Source of the DNA: Novipirellula herctigrandis
GTDB taxonomy: Bacteria > Planctomycetota > Planctomycetia > Pirellulales > Pirellulaceae
Length of the DNA: 64,000 nt
Direction of reading: 5' to 3'
NCBI GenBank assembly: GCA_007859835.1
Contig: SJPJ01000002.1
Coordinates: forward strand, 473,772-537,771
The notes beneath the pieces are model-generated. The model was not told where the DNA came from and searched no databases. It saw only the letters and a program-made list of their open reading frames with translations. This document shows positions 3,680 through 20,735 of this stretch, in pieces. Made by a program: the position numbers and the translations under genes. Each line of letters starts with the position of its first letter. The stretch's first letter is position 1.

Positions 3680-3833
3680 CTCTTTGCACTCAAATCCCTA
3701 CAGAGTCATCGGATGGTATCTCGCCCGCGAAACACTTCTAAACGCGCTACCGAATTTCGCAGACAGCCAAAAAGATTCACGCTCAGAGCCTTTTCAACCA
3801 GCCCCTTTCCAACATCCATTCCTGATGTTTGCC

Positions 3834-4271: not shown

Positions 4272-4306
4272 GATTGATCCCGTTTTAGATTTGATTGGAC
4301 GACCAT

Positions 4307-5062
4307 CTAGCGCGTCATCCCAAGCCGAAGCATATGTGCGATCGATCGAATCGCTTCACGAAAGGTCAATTTACTCTTCCCACGTTCCCGGTCGGTGAAT
4401 GTGATCGGCACTTCGCCCATCTTGGCACCCTGTTTATTCAATTGAACCAACAATTCCTCAAGCAAAGAATAACCTTGGCTCTGCAATTGATCCAAATCGA
4501 CCTTCTTGAGCGAGGAAACTCGGTAACATCGCATTGACCCGCTACAATCCTTCACTGGCAAACCAAGACACAGCGTCGCAAATCGATTCAAAACCCGACT
4601 CATGACTCGCCGATGCCACGGCCATCCGACCAACTTGCCGCCTTTGACGTATCGCGAGCCAATGACCACCGCCATCGCAGACGAGTCGATCATCTTATGC
4701 AACATGGAGGGCAATTGAGCAGGATCGTGGCTCAGGTCACCATCAAGATTGATAAAGAAATCGTAGTCACCGACAATCGCTTCACCGATCGCACGCCGAA
4801 TCGCACCACCAAGCCCTCGCTCGTTTTCGCGAACAAGGACGCGAATCGATGTATCGTCCTTGTATTCTTCATTGACGATCCGAGCCGTGCCGTCGGGCGA
4901 ATTGTCGTCAACGATCAAGATGTCTGCTTCGGGCAATGCGTCGCTGATCCGATCAATCAGAAGGCGAATATTCGCCGCTTCGTTGTACGTGCAAACGCCA
5001 ACGAGAACACGAATGGACGACGTTTTATCCGGTAAGGCGTGGGGGAGTGTTTGGTTAACCAA
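4307..5062 (-). CDS. Family 2 glycosyltransferase, polyprenol-phosphate mannose synthase-like
   Basis: It is a GT-A glycosyltransferase of 251 residues without membrane helices, like the soluble form of dolichol/polyprenol-phosphate mannosyltransferases. Visible motifs are VCTYNEAANI near the N-terminus, the nucleotide-binding IVDDNSPDGTA, the metal-binding NLDGDLSHDP, and the family-typical SRYVKGG and GSMRCYR segments. It likely moves a sugar from a nucleotide donor to a polyprenyl phosphate at the inner membrane face for glycan or glycoprotein assembly. The only start that keeps the first strand is a TTG at 5062, with no clear ribosome binding site. The downstream gene is the small membrane protein. 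Confidence 0.88.
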   Translation of the reverse strand: MVNQTLPHALPDKTSSIRVLVGVCTYNEAANIRLLIDRISDALPEADILIVDDNSPDGTARIVNEEYKDDTSIRVLVRENERGLGGAIRRAIGEAIVGDYDFFINLDGDLSHDPAQLPSMLHKMIDSSAMAVVIGSRYVKGGKLVGWPWHRRVMSRVLNRFATLCLGLPVKDCSGSMRCYRVSSLKKVDLDQLQSQGYSLLEELLVQLNKQGAKMGEVPITFTDRERGKSKLTFREAIRSIAHMLRLGMTR

Positions 5063-5076
5063 GGGAGTGCGAGGGT

Positions 5077-5571
5077 TCAGTGAGCCAGATCAACAGAAAC
5101 GAGTCTTGATTGTAAAGATGTCTCGGAATTTGGCGACCCCGTTAAGTGAATCGGAGACGTCCACTTGGGCAAATCGGCCAAACCATGACAAATGCCGACA
5201 ACGATTGGTCGAACCGATTGGGCATCGTTTTGATCAGATGATGCGAAATTATCAATTGACGCTGGGCGAGCAATATTTGCCGTCAACGCGAGTTCGACCG
5301 GCAGGCCTTTCGCGTTGCATTGACGGAGCGTGCGATTGATTCGTCGGACATTCCAAGAGGCCAATATATTCCGAGCCGCCTGCAAAAAACCGCCCACGGG
5401 ACTCACCAGATCAAAACGAGTCCCGCAGCCCCCTTCGCTGGCAATATCCTTTGCCAACGCTGCGTAGAAATCCGCGCGCAGCGTGATTTCGACAGGCGTC
5501 ACCAACACCGGAGTGGTTGACTCGTGTCGGCTCATTCGTATCAATTCGACAGCAAGTCGTCGTAGCGACAT
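5077..5571 (-). CDS. Hypothetical protein downstream of the ExeA-like ATPase
   Basis: I do not recognise this 164-residue protein. It begins with ATG nine bases after the stop of the ATPase gene and ends 14 bases before the glycosyltransferase start, which favours a real member of the same transcript. The composition is mixed, with a plausible alpha/beta N-terminal half (LVTPVEITLRADFYAALAKD) and a more irregular C-terminal half. There is no signal peptide, membrane helix, or metal motif. It could also be a fast-evolving or decaying gene. Confidence 0.5.
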   Translation of the reverse strand: MSLRRLAVELIRMSRHESTTPVLVTPVEITLRADFYAALAKDIASEGGCGTRFDLVSPVGGFLQAARNILASWNVRRINRTLRQCNAKGLPVELALTANIARPASIDNFASSDQNDAQSVRPIVVGICHGLADLPKWTSPIHLTGSPNSETSLQSRLVSVDLAH

Positions 5572-5580
5572 AGTGAGTGT

Positions 5581-7350
5581 CTACCCTTCGGTTCCGGTTC
5601 GCATGCGGTGAAGCATGGCTCGAAAGTCGACCGACACTTTCGTCTCTTCGCTTTCGACCGATGCCGAATCCGTCCGATGACAAAGATCCATGTCATCTTC
5701 GATGATTAGTAGATCACTATCGTCGCCGATGAGAATCCCGCCACTTTGAATGCTGGCGTCATCTTCAATCGATTCTTCGATCGCTACATTGTCATGAATG
5801 TGGAGCGACACGACTGGCTCCGGTTCAACATTGGCATTGTCAACCGAATCCGATTCTTGATGCAATTCCTGTTTCGAATCCACTCGTGATTCCGCTTCCA
5901 AATCGGCCTCGCCACCACAGCCACAACTTTGGCAATCCCCTTGGCAATGATCAGCCGCATAAATTTCGGACGCTAAGGCCAAATCGGATATCCCGATGAT
6001 CTCTTGATGCAGCATCGCTTCGATTTCGGCAGGCTGCGTTTCTTGATTTGAAGACGTTCGTTCAGCGGTTTCGTTCGCCACATCGGCCGACGCACCTTCA
6101 ACCGCACCTTCAACCGCACCTTCAACCGCACCTTCAACCGCACAGGGCAATAAAACCGGCATCACTCTGTTGCCGACATAAACGTCTTCCTCATCCTCAA
6201 ATTCGCCAAAGACCTCTTCGGGGTTTACCACGACTTGGGCGGGCGGTGCTTCTTCGGACAGTGCCTGTTCGATCGTCTGCGAGCTATCCAATTCGGTTTC
6301 CAGCACGTCGACCGGCTCATCGGTGATAATATCACCACTGACCATGTTCTCGTTCGCAATCGTTTCACGAGTCATCGGTGCCAACAATTCCATCTCGTTC
6401 TCGATCGCGACTTCTTGAATCGGTTTTTCTTTGTGGTCAGCGTATGAAGCCGAACCAAGTTCATCAAGCTCGCCAAACTCGATGGTCGATTCACTCGACT
6501 GCAGCGTTGGTGGTTCGATCATGGGACTAGGCAATTGTTGCAATTGAGCCCAGGCACGGTCGATCATCAGCTCGGCGATTAATGTCTGATCGGACTCTTC
6601 CGCGATATCAATCGCTTCGGTCATGATTTGATTGATTAACCGTGGCACGCCACAACACGCGTGATGAACCGAGGCAATCGCCGGGTCCGTAATCGTGCTG
6701 CCCGGGTCCGCACCACACGCACGGATCGTTTCATGGATATAGTGCCGCGTTTCTTCGCTGTTCATTGGATGCAAATAGCATCGTGCCGCTATCCGCTGAG
6801 TGAACGCTTCGAGTGCTGGCGAAGTCAAGGCGTCGTCAAGTTTCACGCCACCAACAACCACGGCGAAAACACGCGGCTCTCCTTGACGATGGATGTTTGT
6901 CGACATGCGAATCGCTTCTAGCACTTCGGCATCCAACGCTTGCGCCTCGTCGATGATAATCAACAAGCCTTCATTATTAGAATCACTTCCCGACACGCGG
7001 TCGACAAGCGCCAATTGCAGATCCGAATCGTTCAGCTCGCGATAGTCAGCACCAAGGTGATGGAGTAAATGACGAAGATATCCTGCACGAGTTTCAATCG
7101 GCGTTTCATTCAGGATCACGACATCGTGAGTTTCACGATAACGGTCAACCAACAGAGAGCAAAGAAGCGATTTACCCGTACCCGATGGTCCGACCACCAA
7201 TGAAACGCCCTCACGAGCATCGACGCTTCGGCAAACGCGTGTCATGGCGTCCGCAATCGACCCCAAAGGTACGTAGCGACTCACGCTCGGAAACGCGGGA
7301 AATGGGGGAATAACGTATTGCGATGCAGAGGATTGTTCAGAAGGACACAT
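5581..7350 (-). CDS. ExeA/GspA-like AAA ATPase with long acidic C-terminal tail
   Basis: The N-terminal third is an AAA ATPase of the ExeA type. Counted from the ATG at 7350, Walker A GPSGTGKS is at residues 54-61 and Walker B LLIIIDEAQ around 129-137, followed by the GVKLDDAL sensor-like region and a helical lid (CCGVPRLINQIMTEA). ExeA proteins help type II secretion or type IV pilus machines assemble; no such genes are nearby. Residues beyond about 270 form a long Glu/Asp-rich tail of low complexity, including a VEGA tetrapeptide repeat and a cysteine cluster (CQGDCQSCGCGG). The frame extends to a TTG at 7443, but the ATG at 7350 fits the family better. Confidence 0.82.
   Translation of the reverse strand: MCPSEQSSASQYVIPPFPAFPSVSRYVPLGSIADAMTRVCRSVDAREGVSLVVGPSGTGKSLLCSLLVDRYRETHDVVILNETPIETRAGYLRHLLHHLGADYRELNDSDLQLALVDRVSGSDSNNEGLLIIIDEAQALDAEVLEAIRMSTNIHRQGEPRVFAVVVGGVKLDDALTSPALEAFTQRIAARCYLHPMNSEETRHYIHETIRACGADPGSTITDPAIASVHHACCGVPRLINQIMTEAIDIAEESDQTLIAELMIDRAWAQLQQLPSPMIEPPTLQSSESTIEFGELDELGSASYADHKEKPIQEVAIENEMELLAPMTRETIANENMVSGDIITDEPVDVLETELDSSQTIEQALSEEAPPAQVVVNPEEVFGEFEDEEDVYVGNRVMPVLLPCAVEGAVEGAVEGAVEGASADVANETAERTSSNQETQPAEIEAMLHQEIIGISDLALASEIYAADHCQGDCQSCGCGGEADLEAESRVDSKQELHQESDSVDNANVEPEPVVSLHIHDNVAIEESIEDDASIQSGGILIGDDSDLLIIEDDMDLCHRTDSASVESEETKVSVDFRAMLHRMRTGTEG
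6092..6143 (-). repeat. In-frame 12-bp tandem repeat (about 4.3 copies)
   Basis: The plus-strand unit gcaccttcaacc repeats head to tail and encodes the repeated VEGA tetrapeptide in the tail of the ATPase. Confidence 0.9.
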
Positions 7351-7783
7351 CGTTCTATGAGTCTCTTTTGGAGTGGCGAAATTCAGCGAACCAAGCGGAA
7401 GGTGGTTCCCTATAATCGGTATGATCGGCACAATCGCCACCAATCCTGAGCTGATTCCAAAGCCAACTCGCTATCAATGCCACTTTTTGCATCCATTCGC
7501 GTTTCACGCCAAACGCAATGAAACTCAACCGTCACTCCGCTTAACACCCGATAACGACAAACTCGACATCGTTGCAGTTACGGTGCCCCCAATCACGCAA
7601 AAGCGAGGCGAAATATACGTGCGCGACAAACATACGAATGAGATACGCCGCATCTCGATTGGCGATTGCGTTGAGAGATTCCAAGCAATTACAGATACCT
7701 AGCGAAGCGAAGCACTTGCGTCCTCGCTCCCAATTAGACAACTGTATAACGACGGCTCACCCAACGACGGCTCACCGAGGTAA
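7351..7783. other. Intergenic region between ATPase gene and rhaT-like gene
   Basis: About 430 bp without a convincing gene. The plus-strand frame 7373-7702 and minus-strand 7541-7741 have no domain or ribosome binding site. The right end carries a 15-bp direct duplication just downstream of the rhaT-like stop codon. The promoter of the ATPase gene should lie at the left end. Confidence 0.5.
7748..7777. repeat. 15-bp direct duplication
   Basis: Two adjacent copies of aacgacggctcacc plus one variable base, at 7748 and 7763. A shorter shared string tcaccgaggtaa occurs again at 7791, inside the last codons of the symporter gene. Confidence 0.8.
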
Positions 7784-8860
7784 CTACTGTTCACCGAGGT
7801 AATTGCCATAGGTGATCACCAGCGTTGCGATCACGATGATTGCCATGCCGATGTGCAATACTCGCTTCGGTTTGCGGTCGGCTCCTTCCCATTCGCGAAA
7901 CACGAACCCGAAAATGTTGCTGAACAGAATCAGCATCGACATGTGCAGGGCCCAGCTAGTGAATCCGTACTTGGTGCCCATATTTGCGTGGCCCATTCCG
8001 TAGAAGAAGAACTGAAAATACCAAAACGCACCGCTTACTAGCGCCATCAAGTAATAGAAGCCCAGGTTTCCTCCGCTCTCTTTTGGCAGACGCACCAATT
8101 GGCTGGCGGAGCCATTGCGGCGAATCAAGAAAAGGCAGCCGATAAAGTTGGTGAAAAACGCTCCGCCATTCGAAAACGGATAGATCGCATTCATTTTCAA
8201 TAGCTCATTTGCACCGTTCGCCAAAGCAGCTTTTTCGAGCGGTTCACCCGCCAACAATGCAAAGTTAAACAGAGCCGACAAGACACCCGCCATGATTGCC
8301 AGCGGCACTCCGACGCGAAACGAGAACTGGCTTTTCGATTCACTGCCATCGGCATTGTTGGATTTTTCGCGAAGAGCGCCGGCCCATCCGCAGAACAGAA
8401 TGCCAAGTAGCGAAAGGATGATTCCTGCCAAAACAATCTGTCCCGGCGTCGTCGAAAACTTGTCATCGAGCAACCAAACGAATCCATCATTGGGATTCCA
8501 AATTAGCGGAAAGATTGTCCCAAGTCCTGCGGAAATGCCAATCGCGATGGCATAGTTCAGCGAAAACCCGATGTACCGAATCCCGAGTCCAAACGTCAGT
8601 CCACCAATTCCATAAATGGCACCGAGGACGAACGAACGCAACATCACATCGCCGGGAACACTCGCCAGCACATCGATGTAATTCGGGATAGTCAAAAACG
8701 CACCGATGATCGGAAGAATCAACCAAGCGAACGAGGCTTGAGCAATCCAGTAAATTTCCCACGACCATGCCTTCGTCTTTTTCTGAGGCGTGTAGCAACT
8801 CGAGGAAGACAAAGCGCCGACTGCATGGAGTGCGGCACCGACTATTGGATTGGGAACCAT
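7784..8860 (-). CDS. rhaT: RhaT-type L-rhamnose/proton symporter family transporter
   Basis: This is a 358-residue inner-membrane protein with about ten hydrophobic helices. The N-terminal VPNPIVGAALHAVGALSSSS, the following conserved SWEIYWIAQASFAWLILP region and the glycine-rich helices match the RhaT family, which imports L-rhamnose, and in some members other 6-deoxy or related sugars, with protons. The ATG at 8860 has a good Shine-Dalgarno (GAAGG about eight bases upstream); the longer frame to 8956 is not family-like. It is the last gene of a probable iclR-maoC-rhaT operon, next to a fucosidase cluster, so fucose, rhamnose or their derivatives are likely substrates. Confidence 0.88.
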   Translation of the reverse strand: MVPNPIVGAALHAVGALSSSSCYTPQKKTKAWSWEIYWIAQASFAWLILPIIGAFLTIPNYIDVLASVPGDVMLRSFVLGAIYGIGGLTFGLGIRYIGFSLNYAIAIGISAGLGTIFPLIWNPNDGFVWLLDDKFSTTPGQIVLAGIILSLLGILFCGWAGALREKSNNADGSESKSQFSFRVGVPLAIMAGVLSALFNFALLAGEPLEKAALANGANELLKMNAIYPFSNGGAFFTNFIGCLFLIRRNGSASQLVRLPKESGGNLGFYYLMALVSGAFWYFQFFFYGMGHANMGTKYGFTSWALHMSMLILFSNIFGFVFREWEGADRKPKRVLHIGMAIIVIATLVITYGNYLGEQ

Positions 8861-8919
8861 CAAAAAACCTTCGCCGTGCGAGTGAAAGAAAACAAATATG
8901 TATGTTATGGGAAAAGTTG

Positions 8920-9363
8920 CTACTGTTTCTTGCTGACAAAGAGCAAATGGTCGCATACCAATACCGTATCGCCATGTTGATTGACCACTTCCAAGTGTTC
9001 CGTGACAATCCCCATCTCAGGCCGCTTGTGATGGTCCCGTTTTTCCGAGATCGTGACGACCGTGTGTAACGTGTCGTTAATAAAGACGGGCTTCAAAAAC
9101 CGCAGCCGATCGTAACCGTAACTCATTGCGACCGGGTTAATTTCGTTTGCCGTTAAGCCAACGCCGACAGAAAAAGTCAAAGTACCGTGAACGATGCGTT
9201 GTTTGAAATCCTGAGTCTTGCACCACTCAGCGTCCATATGGTGCGGAAAAAAGTCGCCTGTTTGGCCGGCGTGCAGCACAATATCGGCCTCGGTAATCGT
9301 TCGCCCAAGCGTCGTACGTTGGGAATCGATTTGGTAGTCTTCGTAATAAGTCTCTTGAAACAT
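8920..9363 (-). CDS. MaoC-like hot-dog hydratase, catalytic residues intact
   Basis: The 147-residue protein has the single hot-dog fold of MaoC/R-specific enoyl-CoA hydratases. The hydratase motif reads GDFFPHHMD: Asp, then Pro, with His at the canonical position five residues after Asp, so hydration of a 2-enoyl-CoA or a similar thioester is plausible. A second block, [20 protein letters not shown], matches the family core strand and recurs in the paralogue at 12614. The ATG at 9363 lies one base beyond the iclR stop codon, indicating tight coupling. The enzyme probably works with the class III CoA-transferases encoded across the divergent promoter. Its substrate is unknown. Confidence 0.85.
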
Positions 9364-9364
9364 G

Positions 9365-10129
9365 CTATGCCTTTCTAAAAATCTCGGTGAGTCGGTCAAC
9401 CGCTTGACGCACCGCTGGTAGTAAGACGGAGTTTTGTGTTTTCTGAGTCCACTTCAAAATACAGGGAACACCAAGGACGACGTCTTCGCCAAGCCACACG
9501 CGGGGAATCAAAATATCGACATCCAACACACCGGGTGTCGGAGAACTAGGAGCCACTAGTTCGAATTTGCGTTGCAACGACTTCAACTGTGCGTCAACCT
9601 TTGATCGCTGTGGAGCAGTCATTTCCAAATAGTCCGTGTCGCTTTGAAGCCAAAGGTTGCGTGTTTCGATCGGCAAATGGGCCAGCAACAATTTGCCAGC
9701 GGTGGTTTGCACCGCCGCGTAGGTTGTCTCTTCGCTGATGTTCAGCGAGTGCATATGGGGACTCGGTTGATTGTGGATCACTCGTACCCTACCACCATCA
9801 AGAATCGACAAATGACACGATTCGCCAACCGTATGAGCAAGCTCGCGCATTGGTCCCGATGCGACGTCACGGAAACGTTGATGCGCCGGACATAACTGAG
9901 CCAAACTGTACAATCGCATGGTCGGGCGGTATTCACCCGAACCGGGGTCGCGCTGCACATACCCGCGCTGCTCGAGACAATTCAAAAGACGAAACACGGA
10001 ACTAACTGGCTTGCCAGTCTCTAACGCAATCGCTTTCTGAGAGAGCGATTCGGGCGATGCCAACAACAATTCCATCAGGTCAAGACCGTGGTCGAACGCA
10101 GGAACGCTGTATTTGATCGCTGCGGACAT
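9365..10129 (-). CDS. IclR-family transcriptional regulator
   Basis: The protein has 254 residues. An N-terminal winged helix-turn-helix ([20 protein letters not shown] at about residues 28-47, then [16 protein letters not shown] as wing) is followed by the GAF-like IclR effector domain ([34 protein letters not shown]). IclR proteins bind small acids or sugars and control catabolic operons, often including their own. The ATG at 10129 starts the helix-turn-helix domain at the usual spacing. It is the first gene of a leftward operon and divergent from the large rightward cluster; two palindromes in the shared promoter region are candidate operators. Confidence 0.92.
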
Positions 10130-10212
10130 TAGCCACACCAAAAAGACGAAAGAGACGGAATGGGCGTGTTTCGTGACCCAGCGCGCAATTCACAATGCAA
10201 AAATAAACGACA

Positions 10213-10226
10213 GTATTCTAAAATAC
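10213..10226. promoter_or_regulatory. Candidate operator, inverted repeat GTATT-N4-AATAC
   Basis: Perfect 5-bp arms (10213-10217 and 10222-10226) separated by CTAA, in the 171-bp divergent iclR promoter region. IclR regulators commonly bind AT-rich palindromes near promoters; binding here is inferred. Confidence 0.4.
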
Positions 10227-10252
10227 CGCTTGACCAGTTGCCGCACAAGTGT

Positions 10253-10266
10253 TTTCATATATGAAA
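10253..10266. promoter_or_regulatory. Candidate IclR operator, perfect 14-bp palindrome
   Basis: TTTCATATATGAAA is a perfect palindrome ending 34 bp before the ATG of the first rightward gene. Its TTTCA/TGAAA arms resemble operators of KdgR-type IclR regulators. It is well placed to overlap the rightward promoter. Confidence 0.5.
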
Positions 10267-10300
10267 TCTAATTCTTGTCCGTAAAAACGCGTGACTCTCG

Positions 10301-11482
10301 ATGACTCATCCTCCTGTCCACCTTCGCGGTATCACTTGGGACCACACTCGGGGCTACGTTCCAATGGTCGCGACAGCCCAACGCTTTGGTGAATTGCACC
10401 CCGGCGTGTCGATCTCGTGGGAAAAGCGTTCTCTGCAAGAGTTCGCCGATCAGCCGCTTGAGGAATTGGCCGCCAAATACGACCTGCTTGTGATCGACCA
10501 TCCCTGGGCGGGTTTTGCATCCGAACATGGCGTTTTGAAATCGCTCAATTCACTGTTGCCCTCGGATTACCTTGCGGATCAAGCCGAACAAACGGTGGGT
10601 CCGTCATTCGAAAGCTATTCGTTTGATGACCAGCAATGGGCGTTGGCGATCGATGCGGCAACCCCCGTCGCTTCATGGCGCCCGGATTTGTTGGCGCAAA
10701 ATGATACAACCGTCCCCGCGACATGGGAGGAACTTCTTGCATTGGCCCGCTGTGGCTTGGTACTCGTTCCCGGAATCGCGCAAGACACGTTGATGAATTT
10801 CTACATGCTCGGTTGCCGATTGAGCGACGATGTTAGCGAAGGCGGTTTGTTTACGAGTGAAGAGGAAGTCATTTCAGAGACGCTGGGATTAGAAATACTT
10901 GAACGGCTCCGAGAGTTAGCCAATTGGTTGCCCGTCGAATCATTCGAGTGGAACCCGATTCGCATTTACGAAATGATGACCCAACACGACGAATGGGCGT
11001 ACTGCCCGTTCGCTTACGGCTATTCCAACTACGCTCGAGCCGGCTATGCACGCCGACGATTAAAATACGGTGACGTGGTTCAATACAAAGATGGCCCGCT
11101 GCGAACGACTCTGGGAGGCACGGGGCTAGCCGTTTCAAGTAAATGCAAACATTTGGACACGGCGACCGCGTATGTGAAAATGGTTGCCGGTGCCGAATGC
11201 CAACAAACACAATTCACCGAAAATGGCGGACAACCCGGTTATCGCAAAGCGTGGCTCGACGATGAAATGAATCGCCGAACAGACAATTATTTCTGCGACA
11301 CGTTGCCTTGTTTGGATCGCGCCTACTTGCGACCTCGCTATAGCGGAAGTCTTCAATTCCAAGGTCGCGATGGCGGTGGCGCCCCAATCCGTGCCTACTT
11401 GATGGACGGTGGCGACCCTAAGAAAGTGCTCGAACAATTGAACGCAATGTATCGCGCATCGCAACAAGGAAAATCTCTATGA
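10301..11482 (+). CDS. ABC-type sugar-binding-protein fold, apparently cytosolic
   Basis: The 393-residue sequence matches family 1 extracellular solute-binding proteins (for example an [14 protein letters not shown] opening, a [14 protein letters not shown] segment and the [26 protein letters not shown]-terminal hinge region). However, it starts directly at the first beta strand, has no signal peptide or lipobox, and contains about seven cysteines, as expected for a cytosolic protein. No ABC permease or ATPase is encoded nearby. It is the first gene of the rightward operon, and its stop overlaps the CoA-transferase start as ATGA. It may sense or carry a ligand, or have become an enzyme subunit; the function is unknown. 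A paralogue lies at 15958. Confidence 0.8.
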
Positions 11483-12621
11483 GGCCACTCGAAGGGCTAT
11501 TGGTGCTTGAGTTCTGTCAATATCTCGCCGGCCCTTGGGCGGGATTACGATTGGCGGATCTTGGGGCAACCGTCATCAAAATCGAGCGTCCGGTAAAAGG
11601 CGAAGCTTGTCGGCAATTGGCGACAAAGAACCTGTTCGTCGATGGTGACAGCCTAGTTTTTCATACGATCAATCGAGGGAAACAATCGTTCGCAGCCAAC
11701 CTGAAAGACCCCGAGGACTTGGCAACCGTGAAGAAGCTTGTCGCTCGTGCGGACGTGATGACGCATAACTTTCGCCCGGGTGTGATGGACAAACTCGGCC
11801 TCAACTATGATGTCGTTCGCCAATTAAACCCTGGGATTATCTATGGCGAAGTGTCGGGGTACGGCAAGGAAGGACCATGGCGAAACAAGCCAGGGCAGGA
11901 CCTTTTGGCTCAATCAATGACCGGTTTGATGTTCCTATCGGGTCGTCGCGATTCCCCGCCGGTGCCGTTTGGACTCGCATCTGCTGACGCAATTTGCGGC
12001 GTCCATTTTGCTCAAGGTATCTTGGCGGCGCTAGTGCGTCGCGGAAAAACCAAACAAGGTGCGTTGGTCGAAGTGAGCCTGGTCGAATCGACCATTGATA
12101 TGCAATTCGAGGCTTTGACGACATTTTTGAACGATGGTCACCGATTGCCAAACCGAAGCCCTCGCTTTGCCGCACATCCTTATCAAGGTGCACCCTACGG
12201 CGTTTATCCGACCAGCAACGGACATTTAGCCTTAGCGATGGGACCGCTTGACGTGCTCGGGCAAATGTTAGAATTGGCGCAGATCGCTCAGTACACGGAC
12301 AAACGATCCCGTTTTCAGCACGCGGACGCTATCCGTCAAGAGATCGCTGACAAACTAAAAACAGAATCCACATCGCATTGGTTGCAGCTGTTGGAACCGG
12401 CTGATGTTTGGTGTGCAGAGGTGCTGACCTATGACGAACTTCGCGAGCGAGGCGGATACCAAATTTTAGAGATGGAACAAGAAGTCCGTCGTGCCGATTC
12501 CGTCGTGAAGACTCTGCGCTGCCCTATTCGAATTAATGGCGAGCGATTGTTCTGCACGGATGCTGCACCGCGCGTTGGCAGCGATACCGATCGAGTTCTG
12601 AAAGAGATCTCCGATGCCTGA
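11479..12621 (+). CDS. Class III (CaiB/BaiF) CoA-transferase, first copy
   Basis: It is a 380-residue family III CoA-transferase, a class that moves CoA between carboxylic acids through aspartyl thioester chemistry, or acts in some members as an acyl-CoA racemase. The sequence shows the N-terminal [19 protein letters not shown]-type opening, [32 protein letters not shown] and the catalytic Asp141 in [11 protein letters not shown]. The substrate is not readable. The start overlaps the previous stop by ATGA, and the next gene begins eight bases before this stop, so it is coupled on both sides. It is paralogous to the enzyme at 14701, and the two could form a heteromer like other two-subunit family III transferases; that is inference. 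Confidence 0.92.
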
Positions 12622-13135
12622 ACAAACCCCTCCTGAAAAGCACGCCGAAGTTCCCTCGTTCAATGTCGAAGATTGGATGTACGAGGACTTCGAGATCGGT
12701 CTGAAACGCCGTTCGATTTGCCGGACAATTTCCGAAGGCGAAGCGATGATGTTTAACGCAATGGTGTTGGACATGCATCCCTACGTCGGCGATCAACGTT
12801 TCGCAGAAAACGAAGGTGCGTTCGGAAAACGTCTCGTCGCCGGAGCTCAAGTTTTCAGCTATGGCCTCGGTCTGATGGCAAACAACAACGTCCATACCTT
12901 CAGCTACGGCTACGACAAACTGCGTTTTATCAAACCCGTCTTTATCGGCGATACGATCTACACGATTCGCACGCATTTAAGCAAACGGCCAAAGTACAAA
13001 GAAATGGGCTTGGTTGTCGTTAGCTACGAGATTTTTAAGAACGAAGGTGAGTTGGTGATGTACGCCGAGCACTTACAGACTGTCAAATATCGTGATCCAT
13101 CAAAATGGACCGGCGAATTGGAAAAGAAGGTTTAG
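12614..13135 (+). CDS. MaoC-like hot-dog protein with altered active site
   Basis: The 173-residue protein is a MaoC-domain protein paralogous to that at 8920: the block [20 protein letters not shown] is nearly shared. In the hydratase motif, however, the canonical D-x-N-P-x-H-x-D reads DMHPYVGD, so the catalytic His position is Val and the Asn position is His. It may be inactive, use the shifted His, or act as a structural partner of the active paralogue. It starts within the last codons of the CoA-transferase gene, ends 30 bp before the fucosidase start, and has no signal peptide. Confidence 0.82.
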
Positions 13136-13165
13136 CCCCAAATCACTCCCCTCAGGGAATCCAAC

Positions 13166-14704
13166 ATGAAAAGCTTGCTCCTTACCTCCGTGCTGTCGAT
13201 TGCTTGCTGTATCGCAGGTTATCCGCTCTCAGCAGAGGAACCTTCCGATAGCCCTTCCAGTGCTGCTTTCAAGGCCGATTGGGAATCACTGCAACAGTAC
13301 AAGTGCCCCGATTGGTTCCGCGATGCGAAATTTGGAATCTACGCTCACTGGGGTCTGTACTCTGCTCCGCGAGGCCACAGCAACACCGACTGGTACGGCC
13401 GAAACATGTACAAGGAAGGCCATCCGAACAATGTCGAACACCTGCAGCGTTTCGGCGAACTGGATGAGTTTGGGTACAAAGACTTTGCGCCGCTGTTTAC
13501 TGCGGAAAACTTCAACGCCGACGAATGGGTCGACATCTATGTGAAAGCGGGCGCTCGGTTCGCAGGCCCCGTAGGCGAACACGCCGATGGTTTTTCGATG
13601 TGGGATTCGAAAGTCAATCCCTGGAATGCCGTCGACAAAGGCCCCAAACGTGACGTCGTTGCCGAGATGAAAAAGGCTGTCGAAAAGCGTGGTTTGAAGT
13701 TTCTGGTCAGCATGCACCATTCATGGCTTTGGGGTTGGTATCCGACATGGGACAAAAACACCGACGCAGGGGACCCCAAGTACGCATCCCTCTACGGCGA
13801 ACCGCTTCCATCCATCCGAGCACAAGGCGTCGGTTTGCGGTACGCAGTCCGTTCGAACATGTGGACCGATCCGATGCCTTCGGATGAATTTGAAAAAGTG
13901 TGGCTCGAAAAGATCAACGAAGTCGTAACCGGCTACGCACCGGACTTGCTGTGGTTTGACAACCGCATGCAGATCCTAACTGAAAAAGCCCGCATGCAAA
14001 TGGCCGCTGGCTACTACAACCATGCAATGAAGAATGGCCAAGAACCCGTATTGACCTACAAGCGTCCCGATTTGGCTATTGGAACAGCGACGGTTGACCT
14101 GGAACGCAGTCGCATGCCTGACATCTATCCAGACCCGTGGCTGACCGACACATCGATTTCACCTTCAACGTGGGCCTACGCGGTTGACATGGATGTTTAT
14201 CCGGTGGATCGAGTTGTCCATGACCTCATCGACATCGTCAGCAAGAACGGATGTATGTTGCTGAATGTTGCACCCACCCCCGATGGCTTGATCCCCGAAG
14301 AGCAAAAGAAAATTCTATTGGGGATAGGCGAATGGTTGAAAGTCAATGGGGAAGCGATCTATGGGTCGCGTCCTTGGTTGATGTTTGGCGAAGGTCCCAC
14401 GGTGACTCCCGTAGGGCATCTATCCGACGTTGGCTTCAAGGGATTTTCGGATGATGACATTCGCTACACGACCAACAACGGAAACCTATACGCGATCGCG
14501 CTGGGAATTCCCAAAGATGGAAAAGATGTCCGATGTGGTTGGTTGGGCACAGCGACTTATCGCGGTGAGATCAACGACGTTTCGCTTGTCGGTCACGATG
14601 AAAAAATCAATTGGAAACGCAGCGTCGATGGTTTGATGATCGAAGTACCATCCGACACCGCCCTGAAGCACGCTCTCGTGTTCCGAATCAAGAGAGAACA
14701 ATGA
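13166..14704 (+). CDS. Alpha-L-fucosidase, GH29, secreted
   Basis: This 512-residue protein has an N-terminal signal peptide (about residues 1-23, cleavage likely near PLSA-EE), so it acts in the periplasm-like space or outside. The GH29 signatures are visible: [36 protein letters not shown], and the nucleophile Asp265 in PDLLWFDNR. After the barrel, a C-terminal beta domain follows (from about residue 395). It would release L-fucose from glycans. It sits inside the CoA-transferase operon, overlapping the next gene as ATGA, which ties fucose or a fucose-like sugar to that pathway. A ribosome binding site (AGGGA) precedes the ATG. Confidence 0.92.
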
Positions 14705-15840
14705 AACCGCTCGAAGATATTCTCGTTGTCGATTTAAGCCAATTCTTGTCGGGACCTTCCGCTAGTCTTCGACTGGCGGACCTGGGGGCTCGCGTGATCA
14801 AAATCGAACGCCCCGAAACAGGTGACATTTGTCGCCATTTATACGTTTCGGATGTGGACATCGACGGCGAATCGACGATTTTTCACGCGATCAATCGCAA
14901 CAAGGAAGGCTACCAAGCGGACCTAAAAAATGCCGATGACCTAGCGAAGGTCAGACAATTGATCGACCGAGCCGATGTAGTCATTCACAACTTTCGCCCG
15001 GGCGTGATCGACCGGTTTGGCTTGGACTACAAAAGCGTCAAAGCGACGAACCCAACCGTTGTATATGGCGAGATTAGTGGATACGGCAAAGAGGGTCCTT
15101 GGCGAGAAAAGGCAGGTCAGGATCTTTTGGCACAGTCGTTGTCGGGCATGACTTGGCTCAGTGGCAATGCATCCGACGGGCCAGTACCGGTCGGCGTGGC
15201 GGTAGCCGACATTTGGGCTGGCGCGTTATTAGTAACCGGAATTTTGGCTTGTTTGGTACGCCGATCGGTCCGCGGCGAAGGTGGATTAGTCGAAGTCAAT
15301 ATGCTCGAAGCAATGCTCGATTACCAATTCGAACCAATGACGGTCTACTTACAAGACGGCGAACTTCCCCAGCGAACCAAAACCAATAACGCACACGCAC
15401 TTCTTGGTGCTCCGTATGGAGTCTACGCAACGAGTGACGGCTATCTGTCGCTTGCCATGGGCAGTATCCCCGCGCTCGGTGCGCTATTGGATTGCCCTGC
15501 GTTGACCGAGTACACCGACCCCAATAGTTGGTATGACGAGCGAGACACGATCAAACAGATATTGGTCGACCTGCTGAAAACTCGATCGACAACCGATTGG
15601 TTGGCGATTCTTGAACCAGCAGACATTTGGTGCGCTGAAGTCCTGAATTGGAAAACGATGATGGACCACGAAGGGTTCCAAATCTTGGGGATGACTCAGG
15701 AGGTCATGCGAGGTAACGGAACAACCTACGCAACCACATGTTGCCCGATACGAATCGATGGTAAGCGATTGACTGCGGAACGAGGTTCCTGCGACCTAGG
15801 CGAGCATAATGCCGCGATCGATCAAGAGTTTGCAATTTGA
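14701..15840 (+). CDS. Class III (CaiB/BaiF) CoA-transferase, second copy
   Basis: It is a 379-residue family III CoA-transferase closely similar to the copy at 11479, with matching blocks from [14 protein letters not shown] through [29 protein letters not shown] and catalytic Asp141 in [11 protein letters not shown]. Both copies keep the aspartate, unlike some two-subunit enzymes in which only one does. The ATG overlaps the fucosidase stop (ATGA); the longer frame to 14611 overlaps that gene and is rejected. The pair plus MaoC proteins suggests activation of a hydroxy or unsaturated acid as a CoA thioester followed by hydration or dehydration; the acid is unknown. Confidence 0.92.
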
Positions 15841-15957
15841 TCATCAAGAAGAGCTGCGGTATTTTCTGGCCGCTTTTTAACAGCAAACGAAGGAACTAAA
15901 AGATTGTGGCAGGATGCCAAATGGACCAGACGCGTTTGTAATCAAGAGAGCTTAGAA

Positions 15958-17196
15958 ATGGCATCCAACCGAAAAGATGTTTTGCGAATCGCGGTTCGGG
16001 AATTCGAACCGTTCGAACGATCGATCGCAGAAATGTGGGAAGCGTACTGCAAGCAAACCGGTTGCCAAATGCAATTGGACGCGGTCGCAATGGACTTGCA
16101 CGATCTTCACGAGGCAACCATCGGTAGCGGCGGATTACATGATGGCGATTGGGACATTGCCCATGTCACGACCGACTTCATTGCCGAGGCACACGCGACT
16201 GACTCACTATTGAACTTGCGTTCAAGGCTTAACCTAAAGCCGCCTCATGATTTCCCCGCTGGTTGGTCTGAGTCGATGCTAGGCTTTCAAGACTTTGGCG
16301 ATTCCATTGTCGGTGTCCCCTTTCACGATGGACCGGAGTGCTTGATCTATCGCAAAGACTTATTCGCTGATCCGACGAACCAGCAAGCGTACAAAAGTCA
16401 AAAGGGCAAGGATCTGACGCTACCGGAAACTTGGGATGACTTTCACGAAATCGCACGATTCTTCACCCGTCCTGAGGAAAACCTGTACGGCACCGTTGTC
16501 GCTGGCTTTCCGGATGGTCACAACACGGTGTTTGACTTTGCATTGCATGTTTGGACGCGAGGTGGCGAACTAGTCGATTCCAATGGTCGAGTGGTCGTCG
16601 ATTCACCTGCGGCACACGGAGCCATGCGATACTACCGAAAACTGCTGCAAGATTCGTCTGCTATTCACCCCGAATGTCGCACCTACGATTCGGTGAAATC
16701 AGGCCTTGCGTTCGCGCGCGGCGAAGTGGCGATGATGGTCAATTGGTTCGGTTTCGCTTCGATGAGCGAAGTGGTTGCCGAGAGTGTCGTGAAGGGCAAA
16801 GTCGACCTGGCACCGATTCCACATGCACCGGGCTGCGACTCCGCTTCACTTAACTGTTACTGGATTTACGCAATCGGCTCCGGATCGCCTCATGCTGAAA
16901 TTGCGTACGATTTCATTTGCTACATGATCAATCCTGAAAACGACAAACGATTGACACTCAATGGCGGCACGGGGTGCCGAATAAGCACGTGGCACGACAA
17001 GGATGTGAATCGCGAGGTTCCCTATTACTATCGGTTAGAAGCTTTGCACGAACACGCACGTACCTTGCCACGACTAGCCAATTGGGCTCAGTTGGCAGAA
17101 GCAATCGACGAATTAGTGCTACGAACGATGGATAGCGATACTCCGATCGAAGAAATCACGTCCGACGCACAGAAACGCATCGACTCCATGGTTTAA
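15958..17196 (+). CDS. ABC-type sugar-binding-protein fold, cytosolic, second copy
   Basis: The 412-residue protein has the family 1 solute-binding fold (FEPFERSIAEMWEAYCKQTG opening, GVPFHDGPECLIYRKDLF, ALHVWTRGGELVDSNGRVV, GLAFARGEVAMMVNW). The ATG at 15958, preceded by an AGAGAG ribosome binding site, starts just before the first strand, so there is no signal peptide. About nine cysteines again point to a reducing compartment. No permease gene accompanies it. It follows the second CoA-transferase by 117 bp and precedes the oxidoreductase by 27 bp. Like its paralogue at 10301 it may be an intracellular ligand-binding or converted catalytic protein. Confidence 0.8.
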   Translation: MASNRKDVLRIAVREFEPFERSIAEMWEAYCKQTGCQMQLDAVAMDLHDLHEATIGSGGLHDGDWDIAHVTTDFIAEAHATDSLLNLRSRLNLKPPHDFPAGWSESMLGFQDFGDSIVGVPFHDGPECLIYRKDLFADPTNQQAYKSQKGKDLTLPETWDDFHEIARFFTRPEENLYGTVVAGFPDGHNTVFDFALHVWTRGGELVDSNGRVVVDSPAAHGAMRYYRKLLQDSSAIHPECRTYDSVKSGLAFARGEVAMMVNWFGFASMSEVVAESVVKGKVDLAPIPHAPGCDSASLNCYWIYAIGSGSPHAEIAYDFICYMINPENDKRLTLNGGTGCRISTWHDKDVNREVPYYYRLEALHEHARTLPRLANWAQLAEAIDELVLRTMDSDTPIEEITSDAQKRIDSMV

Positions 17197-17223
17197 TCTT
17201 TCACTTTTCCCGAGGACACACTG

Positions 17224-18297
17224 ATGGACATCCAATACAAACCCGAACTTCCAACGCGTGGCGTTCCCATCATCATTTTGGGTGCCGGTGGAATTGTCAA
17301 AGATGCTCACTTGCCCGCTTACAAACAGGCGGGCCTTACCGTTCACGGAATTTACAATCGAACGATCGAAAAGGCGCGACGATTAGCGGCGCAGTACGAC
17401 ATTCCCAATGTGTACGATTCGATTGAACAAGCGGTCGCCGATGCCCCGTCGGAAGTGGTTTGGGACATCGCGGTGATGCCGCCTCAGTTTGTGGATGTGC
17501 TCGACAAGCTACCGGAAAACTCGCATGTGCTGATCCAAAAACCCATGGGCGATGACTGGGCTCAGACACTTGCGATTCGCGACAAATGCCACGAAAAAGG
17601 CCATCAAGCTGCGATCAATTGCCAATTGCGGTTTGCTCCGTTCGTGATGGCGACGCGGTGGCTATTGGATCAGGGATTGCTTGGCGAGTTGCACCACCTC
17701 GAAGTTCACGTTGAAGTGTACACGCCGTGGCATTTGTTCCCTCATATTCATCCGCTTCCGCGAGTGGAGATTCAACAACACAGCATTCACTACGTCGATT
17801 TGATCCGATCGTTCTTTGGCGATCCGGAAAACATCTATGCGCGGACGGTGAAGCACCCCAAACAAGCGGAACTGGCATCGACACGAAGCACAATCATCAT
17901 GGATTACGGCGACGAGATTCAAGCAACGATTTTGACAAATCACGGTCACGACTTCGGACCGCACAACCAACAAAGCTATATCAAGTGGGAAGGAACCAAG
18001 GGCGCAGTCAAGGCAAAGATGGGATTGCTGATGAATTATCCCGATGGAGTGCCCGATCACTTTGAGTATTGTTTGCTGAACAAAGACGCCCCCCCAAAGT
18101 GGGAAACCGTTCAGCTTGAAGGTTCGTGGTTTCCCGAGGCGTTCGTTGGCACAATGGCGTCCGTCCAGCGACATTTAGAAGGAACCGCCGATTCGATGCC
18201 TACCAATATCGACGATGTGATGCGGACAATGGCATGTGTCGAAGCTGCATACGAATCGAATGCGAACGGTGGCAGCAAAGTCGACTACGGTGTTTAG
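17224..18297 (+). CDS. Gfo/Idh/MocA-family oxidoreductase
   Basis: The 357-residue protein starts with a Rossmann motif, IILGAGGIVKDAHLPAYKQAG, preceded by a GAGGA ribosome binding site. The family EKP motif appears as IQKPMGDDW, and the C-terminal half is the alpha/beta GFO_IDH_MocA domain with the typical GGLL-like IQHHSIHYVDLIRSFFG-type His segment (QQHSIHYVDL). Such enzymes oxidise or reduce sugars or inositols with NAD(P). Glu is replaced by Gln in the cofactor-loop motif (E-K-P to Q-K-P). It is the last gene of the rightward cluster, ahead of a hairpin, and probably oxidises the sugar delivered by the fucosidase and symporter; this is inferred. Confidence 0.88.
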   Translation: MDIQYKPELPTRGVPIIILGAGGIVKDAHLPAYKQAGLTVHGIYNRTIEKARRLAAQYDIPNVYDSIEQAVADAPSEVVWDIAVMPPQFVDVLDKLPENSHVLIQKPMGDDWAQTLAIRDKCHEKGHQAAINCQLRFAPFVMATRWLLDQGLLGELHHLEVHVEVYTPWHLFPHIHPLPRVEIQQHSIHYVDLIRSFFGDPENIYARTVKHPKQAELASTRSTIIMDYGDEIQATILTNHGHDFGPHNQQSYIKWEGTKGAVKAKMGLLMNYPDGVPDHFEYCLLNKDAPPKWETVQLEGSWFPEAFVGTMASVQRHLEGTADSMPTNIDDVMRTMACVEAAYESNANGGSKVDYGV

Positions 18298-18387: not shown

Positions 18388-19218
18388 TTAGGGTTTCTTG
18401 ACTAACTGATAGACTCGAACCCAGTCGTAATAGCTTGAATTGATCTCATCATTGGAGATCGCCTCGGGTGTTGGCGTTGTCTCCCATTTGTAAGTCTCAG
18501 TAACCATGTTGATTTGCATAGGACGATCAAAGGGTTTAGGGCTAACCTCGGTACTCGGTTGCACCGTCATGCAATGAACATCGTCAAGGTAGTAGTGCAC
18601 GGTATTTGCATCGACCCACCATGCGGCATACGTATGAAACGCCTCTCCCGAAGGCGGGTCGAGAGCGACGCTATCATTTTGGCTGTATCCTTTGCGTTCG
18701 CCATTGACGGTATAAAAGAAGTGTGTGTTGGGTTTCCATTGCCGATTCCAATTAGGAAATCGCTGCGGAGCACCGATCGCTTCAACGATGTCGAGCTCCT
18801 GCGAGGCTTCCCCATCGCCATACGGGGCACTGCGGTTGCTCATCCAAAACGTCGTGGACATGGAAATATTGGATGCTTTCAATCTCGCTTCATAGTAGCC
18901 GTAGTGAGCCTGATTACTCTTTGAAACAACCGCTCCACCCGCGATGGTGTAGTCACCTTCGGGTTCATCGAGCATCCTATTGTGGATCCGAAGCATGCCA
19001 TCGGATACCGATAACGTCGACGGATCAAACTTCGCCGGCGGCCTCCCTTTCCAAAAGGGATGGTGGTCGAGCCATTTGCTGCGATCGAGTTCGCTACCGT
19101 TGAATTCGTCTGAAAACCGTTCGTCAAGTTTCCACTCGAATCCATCGGTTGGCTGAGGGGGTTCCGCGATACAGGGGGTTACGAGCAGAAAGAACAGGAG
19201 TGCGAGTGGTTTTCTCAT
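18388..19218 (-). CDS. Secreted family 16 glycoside hydrolase
   Basis: The 276-residue protein starts at the ATG at 19218 with a signal peptide (MRKPLALLFFLLVTPCIA, residues 1-18). The GH16 active-site motif ELDIVE gives nucleophile Glu141, assisting Asp143 and acid/base Glu146. The fold-typical opening FSDEFNGSELDRSKW and the closing YYDWVRVYQL are present. Sequence around the motif and the WWVDANTVHYYLDD segment resemble bacterial beta-agarase/porphyranase and carrageenase-type enzymes, so an algal galactan is the likely substrate, but I cannot fix the subfamily. It converges with the fucosidase cluster but is transcribed separately. A frame extension to 19272 would put a non-signal stretch before the leader and is rejected. 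Confidence 0.87.
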   Translation of the reverse strand: MRKPLALLFFLLVTPCIAEPPQPTDGFEWKLDERFSDEFNGSELDRSKWLDHHPFWKGRPPAKFDPSTLSVSDGMLRIHNRMLDEPEGDYTIAGGAVVSKSNQAHYGYYEARLKASNISMSTTFWMSNRSAPYGDGEASQELDIVEAIGAPQRFPNWNRQWKPNTHFFYTVNGERKGYSQNDSVALDPPSGEAFHTYAAWWVDANTVHYYLDDVHCMTVQPSTEVSPKPFDRPMQINMVTETYKWETTPTPEAISNDEINSSYYDWVRVYQLVKKP

Positions 19219-19553
19219 TGTTCCGAAATCGTGAGAGGAACGTGAAGGAAAAGGCGACAAGATTCTGGGCATTATATCCGTTTATACGTGGGAAAGCACT
19301 TTTTCAACGGCATTAGAACCATCGTTGCCGTCGCGGACCAATCCGCGACTTTTTTGCGGTTCATCGACTTTTCCGATTGTTCGGGTCATGCGGATTTTCA
19401 TGGTTGCCGATCTTAGACCCATGAGGGTCTGCGCGCTCGAACGAAAAATGTTCCTTGCGTGAAACTCACCATAGAAGAACCACCGTGTCGATCGATCGCC
19501 AACGCGATTGGCCATTCCGATCGATTTCGGGCTGTTGTTTGGGGGAAAAACTA

Positions 19554-20627: not shown

Positions 20628-20735
20628 ACCATCGATTCGACCTGCCGATCGTTTCGCTGGAACGGTGGCTAATGTAAATACCAAAATATACAACGCTAGC
20701 GAAAAGACGACCAAGTGCACACGGAGGTGCCTCGG

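Follow-up and report, generated by a model that had tools for sequence, protein, structure and literature searches.

A conserved gene island of Novipirellula herctigrandis that may catabolise L-galacto sugars through CoA-thioester dehydration of the aldonate

Introduction

In the carnitine cycle of Escherichia coli, CaiB and CaiD place coenzyme A (CoA) on a hydroxy acid, dehydrate the thioester and recycle the CoA. The sugar-acid dehydratases known to us act on the free acid and are of the enolase-superfamily or IlvD type, and the L-fuconate pathway consists of a fuconate dehydratase, a short-chain dehydrogenase/reductase (SDR) and an FAH hydrolase. Here we analyse a 64,000-nucleotide stretch of the planctomycete Novipirellula herctigrandis (GenBank GCA_007859835.1, contig SJPJ01000002.1, positions 473,772 to 537,771; the window), in which a ten-gene island encodes two class III CoA-transferases (CoAT1 and CoAT2), two MaoC proteins (MaoC1 and MaoC2), two signal-less proteins with the fold of solute-binding proteins (SBP1 and SBP2), a GH29 glycosidase, a RhaT-family symporter, a Gfo/Idh/MocA oxidoreductase (Gfo) and an IclR-family regulator. 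The island probably turns L-galactose or L-fucose, sugars of seaweed and plant cell walls, into an acid by oxidation, which CoA-linked dehydration would follow. We consider it about evenly balanced whether this is a catabolic module for L-galacto sugars that works through CoA-thioester dehydration of the aldonate, the sugar being L-galactose of red-algal porphyran or agar here and possibly L-fucose in other hosts.

The island shares with the carnitine cycle the pairing of class III CoA-transferase and crotonase, but it has two CoA-transferases, signal-less SBPs, a sugar dehydrogenase and a sugar transporter, and the larger part of its loci carries MaoC instead of crotonase; against the carnitine CoA-transferase model its two transferases score 74 and 71 bits (cutoff 413). 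The periplasmic-binding-fold enzymes MqnA/MqnD and Thi5 likewise have an SBP fold inside the cell, whereas SBP1 and SBP2 are MalE-like and catalysis by them is a proposal. According to passages in PMC10163077 and PMC5943477, the 3,6-anhydro-L-galactose (AHG) pathway also leads from an L-galacto aldonate to 2-keto-3-deoxy-L-galactonate (KDGal), with the same alcohol dehydrogenase (ADH) and KduD-like families, but its cycloisomerase is a CoA-free enzyme of the enolase superfamily. The L-fuconate route and the fungal L-galactonate dehydratase route, the latter as outlined in part of PMC11219438, also proceed from sugar or uronate through the aldonate to a 2-keto-3-deoxy acid, but by a direct dehydratase. 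The earlier note on this DNA knew of no pathway with such a combination, and in the open-access literature, which excludes most subscription papers and in which hyphenated wording may have been missed, we found no CoA-transferase in fucose, galactose or anhydrogalactose catabolism; PMC9676036, in which the terms fucose, CoA-transferase and MaoC occur together, appears to be about bioplastic producers. The conserved gene set is apparently undescribed.

A conserved core of SBP1 and class III CoA-transferases

Both CoA-transferases combine the PF02515 fold with the catalytic Asp of class III (CaiB/BaiF) enzymes, as the earlier note had observed (Asp141 in CoAT1), and are class III CoA-transferases predicted to move CoA between carboxylic acids. 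The Asp is present in 64/64 CoAT1 and 78/78 CoAT2 sequences (142/142 aligned, the two of the window included), a count that covers 142 of the 156 labelled rows (at least 43% identity, 340 to 480 aa) and leaves the fused and most divergent rows outside. The whole 9.5-Mb genome has two PF02515 matches only, both inside the island. In a tree built by a quick method with support from the Shimodaira-Hasegawa-like approximate likelihood ratio test (SH-aLRT, no bootstrap), CoAT1 and CoAT2 come out as sister groups. A branch with SH-aLRT 88 sets 79 CoAT2 rows apart, 64 CoAT1 rows group together (SH-aLRT 96), and a branch with SH-aLRT 100 separates these 143 rows and one more from the family's 12 other class III enzymes. 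The CoAT1 group does not include three divergent rows labelled CoAT1 (L046, L047 and L125), and two of these also lie beyond the branch with a support of 100. In Algisphaera (L051), the two proteins are fused, residues 7-385 being 64% identical to CoAT1 and residues 416-799 63% identical to CoAT2, which is evidence for a CoAT1/CoAT2 heteromer as in benzylsuccinate CoA-transferase. BbsE/BbsF (PDB 9fn0) is such a heteromer of two different class III subunits; against CoAT1 these reach no more than 69 and 95 bits, and in the island both sister proteins keep the Asp. CoA ligases neighbour the module in Halostagnicola (L047, from annotation) and Ammoniphilus (L125, from Pfam), and these acyl-CoA ligases could prime the CoA cycle.

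A paralogous module with a divergent CoA-transferase, a second signal-less SBP1-like protein and a crotonase occurs in Paenibacillales and relatives (L125 at 3824-9848, L210, L213, L214, L216, L221 and L236); in L125 it also has an AMP-ligase and an enolase-like open reading frame (ORF). Possibly this module performs the same chemistry on another sugar acid.

The earlier note made its proposal depend on conservation of the neighbourhood. When 199 genomes of the family were searched with CoAT1, 17 had matches at E ≤ 1e-20, and only the window's own genome and four others (G473, G402, G462 and G540) had a CoAT1 of at least 77% identity together with a CoAT2. The island has the same gene order in these four, except for MaoC2, which is absent in G540 and internally deleted or shortened in G473. 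In a sample of 392 Planctomycetota genomes SBP1 found matches in 14 (E ≤ 0.001), those above 36 bits being confined to the own genome and G342 (38% identity), and this patchy distribution suggests horizontal movement of the island. In G342, a distant planctomycete, the SBP1 relative lies on contig C21 (L017/L018) beside ORFs that by eye resemble Gfo- and RraA-family genes; a CoA-transferase (39%) and a relative of Gfo (29%) are close to it.

By tblastn, SBP1 matched 145 plasmid records, and SBP2 relatives of 37-55% identity were found on plasmids of Rufibacter, Persicobacter (two), Croceibacterium and Halostagnicola. A profile scan of genome contigs with a 12-sequence SBP1 alignment returned at least 542 relatives; the best 80 were kept and, with the window, 4 loci from other genomes and 7 plasmid loci, form a first set of 92 loci, in which L040 and L050 are one and the same locus. 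Genes were labelled by best BLAST match to window genes or by sequence cluster with one representative scanned. At least one copy was found in 91 of the 92 loci for SBP1, 84 for CoAT2, 70 for CoAT1, 57 for Gfo, 56 for MaoC1, 54 for IclR, 50 for SBP2 (at least 34% identity), 29 for crotonase, 23 each for aldehyde dehydrogenase (ALDH) and RhaT, 21 for FucP, 12 for GH29 and 10 each for lactonase and MaoC2, absences being uncertain because contig ends cut some loci. At E ≤ 1e-40, the SBP1 alignment matched 3/251 Chloroflexota, 33/296 genomes of the order of Cohnella and 6/385 of the class of Hirschia. The neighbourhood thus conserved recurs in six phyla (Planctomycetota, Bacteroidota, Pseudomonadota, Bacillota, Chloroflexota and Acidobacteriota), and the core of signal-less SBP1 and class III CoA-transferases in Bacteroidota, agar-degrading Gammaproteobacteria, Paenibacillales, Chloroflexota, Acidobacteriota and Rhizobiales.

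Hydratases and the step between acid and KDGal

Only 12 of the 92 loci, several of them cut by contig ends, have neither MaoC1 nor a crotonase with the core. The Asp/His pair of MaoC hydratases is kept in 53/53 aligned MaoC1 sequences (3 of 56 were dropped by length), and MaoC1 is the likeliest aldonyl-CoA dehydratase. When 25 of the 29 crotonases are aligned, the 4 divergent ones being left out, both glutamates, which we take to be the catalytic ones, belong to the columns with a conservation of at least 95%. Both MaoC proteins of the earlier note match Pfam, but MaoC2 lacks the catalytic His: in 10/10 sequences, the window's included, the Asp is kept and the His is replaced by Val. Beyond Planctomycetota, 7 loci of Chloroflexota, Bacillota and Acidobacteriota have a counterpart of MaoC2, which we suppose to be a subunit or a variant dehydratase. 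Mere degeneration was considered and rejected, as the gene is broken or lost in two Pirellulaceae yet 71-73% identical across phyla. The subfamily with invariant D-x-H-P-Y-V has members in the window, L068, L091, L101, L104, L114, L125 and L127.

Two versions of the module can be distinguished. Version A, to which the window belongs, has the core, MaoC1, Gfo and usually SBP2, and in version B (23/92 loci) a crotonase and an ALDH replace MaoC1, Gfo and SBP2. Version B occurs in agar-degrading hosts, among them Marinimicrobium, Gilvimarinus, Microbulbifer and Agaribacter. Lutibacter agarilyticus (L061) has the only version B locus that also holds Gfo, SBP2 and MaoC1; the other version B loci have neither SBP2 nor lactonase, and their ALDH would give the acid directly. 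Both versions supply a candidate aldehyde or lactol oxidiser, a CoA-transferase and a hydratase. A GH2 gene is present in 14/23 version B loci; it is beta-mannosidase-like, and the substrate was not identified from it.

Enzymes adjoining the module point to the step that it would fill. A zinc-dependent ADH followed by an SDR lies inside or beside the module in L044, L051, L062, L070, L079, L081, L084, L092, L115 and L116, and L111 is cut after the ADH. KduD is the best NCBIfam model (319-332 bits, just under the cutoff of 338.85) for the SDR of L057 and for four of those in the loci just listed. In L057 an ADH stands beside a KduD-like SDR and an ALDH, and the module-linked ADHs and SDRs are 49-56% and 73-79% identical to these counterparts. 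Tamlana fucoidanivorans has the same ADH (76%) and KduD (82%) beside an AHG cycloisomerase (71%) and an ALDH. Passages on agar pathways in PMC10163077 and PMC5943477 place KDGal 5-dehydrogenase and KduD-type activities after KDGal. With the acid made upstream and KDGal consumed by the adjoining enzymes, the gap is the dehydration of the aldonate and, to judge from gene order and family names, CoA activation and MaoC would fill this gap from aldonate to KDGal. The enolase-family cluster has no member in the eleven ADH/SDR loci, whose unlabelled ORFs were scanned only in part, and the annotated Persicobacter locus names no enolase-family gene.

Solute-binding proteins without an export signal

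The absence of signal peptides from the SBPs, asserted by the earlier note, was borne out by motif position and N-terminal hydropathy. When the ORFs are read from the farthest possible start codon, the first conserved motif is preceded by fewer than 20 residues in 65/91 SBP1 and 38/47 SBP2, and among the remaining 26 SBP1 and 9 SBP2 a hydrophobic stretch precedes the motif in one SBP1 only (L102); 1 SBP1 and 3 SBP2 without the motif pattern were set aside. With trimmed starts, the top 10-residue hydropathy within the first 30 residues was 1.49 for SBP1 (n = 79) and 1.12 for SBP2 (n = 40), compared to 1.95-3.03 for 13 transporter SBPs (45 residues taken; two are the same gene) and 2.44 for the window GH29. 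By these measures SBP1 and SBP2 are unexported. The SBP1 model (predicted local distance difference test, pLDDT, 92.6) matches sugar-binding proteins in Foldseek with a best template modeling (TM) score of 0.81, and that of SBP2 (pLDDT 93.1) matches MalE3 with TM 0.85-0.89. They thus have the MalE-like fold of ATP-binding cassette (ABC) transporter SBPs and lack the export signal and linked ABC permease or ATPase genes, none of which occurs in the two operons; SBP2 is MalE-like and does not have the amidohydrolase fold of L-fucono/galactono lactonases.

SBP1 adjoins a same-strand CoA-transferase gene (gap below 300 bp) in 80/91 loci of the first set; four of the others have no such gene in the stretch and seven have a non-adjacent one. 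A second set was made of 39 further loci, in which SBP1 lies beside the transferase in 27, without one in 5 and non-adjacent in 7, and of 4 places left from the sampling of Chloroflexota, Cohnella's order and Hirschia's class, whose other places the first set already contained; L190 and L193 repeat first-set loci. Across 79 SBP1 sequences 67 columns are invariant.

SBP2 alternates with an amidohydrolase lactonase. Among the 57 Gfo loci of the first set, 47 have SBP2 only, 8 the lactonase only, one both (L081, with the lactonase on the other strand) and one neither (L126). The 21 Gfo loci of the second set comprise 7 with SBP2 only, 12 with the lactonase only (59-79% identity to references), none with both and 2 with neither (L224 and L225; Fisher p = 0.001 for the first 19 of the 21, with no phylogenetic correction). 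Where no gene was labelled Gfo (22 loci), SBP2 occurs once (L237) and a lactonase once, as a weak match (L226, 34%). The two states both occur in Paenibacillales, Chloroflexota, Alphaproteobacteria and Acidobacteriota (SBP2 locus L091 without Gfo). One lactonase that was scanned scores 197.7 bits against the L-fucono-1,5-lactonase model (cutoff 400). Because nearly all Gfo loci carry either SBP2 or lactonase, the simplest reading is that SBP2 may perform the lactonase step or make it unnecessary. The broader idea, that CoA-thioester dehydration of aldonates is widespread and that SBP folds were recruited to the cytoplasm, SBP2 as a lactonase in place of the amidohydrolase and SBP1 in the CoA-transferase step, either as an obligate subunit or as an enzyme, is one we advance tentatively and regard as somewhat doubtful. 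The annotation of the Rufibacter SBP2 (L043, 15025-15145) starts about 40 codons late, with conserved in-frame sequence upstream.

Proposed route and alternative explanations

From gene content and its conservation, residue conservation, gene swaps and the fusion, all visible in the sequences, we infer the substrate, the CoA chemistry and the roles of SBP1, SBP2 and MaoC2. A secreted GH29 would release the sugar and RhaT would import it; Gfo, the proposed L-galactose/L-fucose 1-dehydrogenase, would oxidise C1 to give a lactone, which SBP2 (an amidohydrolase lactonase in other lineages) would open to the aldonate. Heteromeric CoAT1/CoAT2, helped by SBP1, would put CoA on the aldonate, and MaoC1 (a crotonase in agar degraders) would catalyse alpha,beta-elimination of the C3 hydroxyl, yielding an enol that would tautomerise to KDGal. 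The transferase would hand the CoA on to the next aldonate, as in the CaiB/CaiD cycle with carnitine, and KDGal 5-dehydrogenase and KduD would lead to 2-keto-3-deoxygluconate (KDG). If true, this CoA-dependent route would be a second chemical solution for sugar-acid dehydration, common in seaweed-galactan and plant-pectin eaters as judged from the number of SBP1 relatives, and would suggest how agar and fucoidan degraders without detected L-fucose isomerase (FucI) or fuconate dehydratase use L-galactose or L-fucose. It would make the role of unexported solute-binding proteins directly testable, and would be more novel still should SBP1 and SBP2 prove catalytic.

Several observations weigh against the route. 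The window genome keeps a classical FucI, its only match lying outside the island on another contig, C1; FucI is over the cutoff in 15/53 hosts, the window's included, and 3 more have weak matches. KDGal 5-dehydrogenase has a match at E ≤ 1e-40 in 12/16 genomes and none in the other four (G592 and the Pontibacter, Hymenobacter and Pedobacter genomes G601, G603 and G617, the last genus with one), and these four may form another product. In the loci of Martelella and Nitratireductor, L-fuconate dehydratase lies beside the CoA-transferase, SBP1 and MaoC, and four lactonase-type hosts, the host of L081, G473 and G462 also have a fuconate dehydratase, which would make CoA dehydration redundant in those hosts. 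No catalytic residue was identified in SBP2, four SBP2 loci (L044, L084, L115 and L116) also carry a beta-propeller lactonase-family gene, and the three Gfo loci with neither SBP2 nor lactonase count on the same side.

Concerning the substrate, the window GH29 scores 387 and 379 bits against the exo-alpha-L-galactosidase BpGH29 (PDB 7snk and 7ljj) and 260 bits against the next GH29, so that a specificity like that of this porphyran exo-alpha-L-galactosidase is a candidate. PMC12316285, in the relevant passage, gives 7SNK and 7LJJ as BpGH29, active on desulfated porphyran oligosaccharides, and a passage of PMC11189522 clusters BpGH29 with xyloglucan fucosidases. According to part of PMC5943477, KDG is converted to its 6-phosphate in the agar pathway; for hosts that rely on this pathway here, a 6-deoxy sugar would not be a fitting substrate. 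L-galactose would be our first choice, because the GH29 is nearest to BpGH29 and the phosphorylation demands a 6-OH. The earlier note had proposed a CoA-linked deoxysugar island: the island is conserved and CoA activation of a sugar-derived acid is supported as probable by the comparisons above, but the deoxysugar is doubtful because of the same GH29 likeness and of the ADH/KduD-like pair of several islands, which resembles that of the AHG pathway, a pathway to a C6-phosphorylated product. L-fucose is nevertheless a possible substrate, to which Rhizobiales and some terrestrial clusters point; it would pass through the lactone, L-fuconate, fuconyl-CoA and 2-keto-3-deoxy-fuconate to pyruvate and a C3 unit. 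Speaking for it are the FucP genes beside the module in 21/92 loci, the L-fucose genes of annotated Rhizobiales loci, the lactonase that matches the L-fucono-1,5-lactonase model below its cutoff, and T. fucoidanivorans, which is named from fucoidan and has neither a FucI match nor a fuconate dehydratase at E < 1e-50. At this threshold fuconate dehydratase was found in 7/33 genomes and in 2/2 plasmid records (one being the query's own); the best match in the window genome is partial (E 9e-9), and 14/33 genomes in both searches have neither FucI over the cutoff nor the dehydratase, among them T. fucoidanivorans, three Lutibacter genomes, Seonamhaeicola and Flavivirga. Since the GH29 and the demand for a 6-OH count against L-fucose, and many hosts are agar or porphyran degraders with 3,6-anhydro-L-galactonate cycloisomerase, we judge this version rather unlikely.

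Three further explanations were weighed, each of which we find improbable, the second marginally more so than the others. The CoA thioester might serve C2 epimerisation or another alpha-proton step: CoAT1 is homologous to the class III relative AMACR (alpha-methylacyl-CoA racemase), the CoA-transferases number two, and a dehydratase is already present in two Rhizobiales loci, but a hydratase accompanies the core in 80/92 loci with catalytic residues intact where aligned, and an epimerase needs none. A modified L-galacto sugar, such as 2-O-methyl-fucose or a methylated anhydrogalactose, would suit hosts that often keep the plain-sugar routes (FucI; the cycloisomerase of 21/21 crotonase-type hosts) and the rhamnogalacturonan II-like neighbourhoods; no demethylase, however, was found among the recurrent neighbour families identified, and by established chemistry CoA activation as such does not remove a methyl group. 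That the SBPs do no more than buffer or sense sugars in solution, or come from transporter genes in decay, with the CoA genes serving an unrelated acid, would fit the ordinary sugar-binding protein fold, but SBP1 keeps its place beside a same-strand transferase gene, its invariant columns make decay unlikely, and SBP2 is complementary to the lactonase.

AHG as sole target was considered and rejected, as 3,6-anhydro-L-galactonate cycloisomerase (at least 50% identity) is already present in all crotonase-type hosts searched; it also occurs in several marine MaoC-type hosts. The one ALDH of a crotonase-type locus that was searched matches PDB 6j75 with 457.7 bits, a structure named AHG dehydrogenase in a passage of PMC10163077, and the L057 ALDH beside ADH and KduD is a second one, 43% identical to the module ALDH. 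In Flammeovirga pacifica, one of two AHG-dehydrogenase-like proteins had no detected activity (PMC6581685, in part); our guess is that it is the module ALDH. Contig C1 of the window genome has a cluster with ADH (53%), ALDH (50%), a cycloisomerase-like gene (42%), a weak KduD-like SDR (37%) and an ORF that by eye resembles aldose epimerase.

Layout of the island and neighbouring genes

All genes named in the earlier note lie where it placed them (Table 1). By coordinates and Pfam, they form two divergent operons that meet at 10142-10300, RhaT-MaoC1-IclR on the minus strand and SBP1-CoAT1-MaoC2-GH29-CoAT2-SBP2-Gfo on the plus strand; no clear operator was seen in this intergenic region aligned for five relatives.

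Table 1. Genes of the island and the adjoining GH16 gene, in window coordinates
Feature	Position	Strand	Evidence
RhaT-family sugar:H+ symporter	7784..8956	-	Pfam RhaT 187.7 bits
MaoC1 hotdog hydratase/dehydratase, Asp/His pair (GDFFPHH)	8920..9399	-	Pfam 90.8 bits
IclR-family regulator	9365..10141	-	Pfam HTH_IclR (50.6 bits) and IclR_C
SBP1, signal-less MalE-fold protein	10301..11482	+	Pfam SBP_bac_8
CoAT1, class III CoA-transferase	11479..12621	+	PF02515 320 bits; Asp141
MaoC2, conserved MaoC variant, catalytic His to Val (D-x-H-P-Y-V)	12614..13135	+	Pfam 42.5 bits
GH29 exo-glycosidase, N-terminal signal-like stretch	13166..14704	+	Pfam Alpha_L_fucos 333 bits
CoAT2, class III CoA-transferase	14701..15840	+	PF02515 306 bits
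SBP2, signal-less MalE-fold protein	15958..17196 (ORF listed from 15904)	+	Pfam SBP_bac_1
Gfo/Idh/MocA oxidoreductase	17224..18297	+	Pfam GFO_IDH_MocA 37.6 bits
GH16 glycanase adjoining the island, agar/porphyran-type context	18388..19272	-	Pfam GH16 46.5 bits

The repeated ATGA overlaps are real: 4 bp are shared by SBP1 and CoAT1 (11479-11482) and, if CoAT2 starts at Met31, by GH29 and CoAT2 (14701-14704); the CoAT2 ORF is listed from 14611, and we took Met31 at 14701 as its start. CoAT1 and MaoC2 overlap by 8 bp. The RhaT ORF begins at 8956, with Met33 at 8860 as the likelier start, and scores 331.8 bits against the NCBIfam RhaT model, under its curated cutoff of 468; none of the nine island proteins scanned (all but Gfo) exceeds the cutoff of an NCBIfam model. 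Besides the window, 7 loci have a GH16 of the same cluster close to the core (23-44% identity).

Just outside the island, an ATPase gene at 5581-7443 scores 102.9 bits against an XrtA/PEP-CTERM-associated family (cutoff 324.5), and at 20715-26546 the window encodes a 1943-aa protein with repeated SdrD_B/prealbumin-like domains, likely a surface protein. Among the other loci, L063 encodes a DUF6786 protein (7843-9039, 391.8 bits) ahead of the module's IclR gene, and L054 and L055 have an ORF at the matching position. RuBisCO-like genes, DUF1537-type kinase genes or both lie near the module in L102, L095, L197, L199, L206, L217, L219, L235 and L046; such apiose-type neighbours in Paenibacillus and Croceibacterium are context only. 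Large glycosidase-like ORFs accompany them, and our guess is that these are rhamnogalacturonan-II loci.

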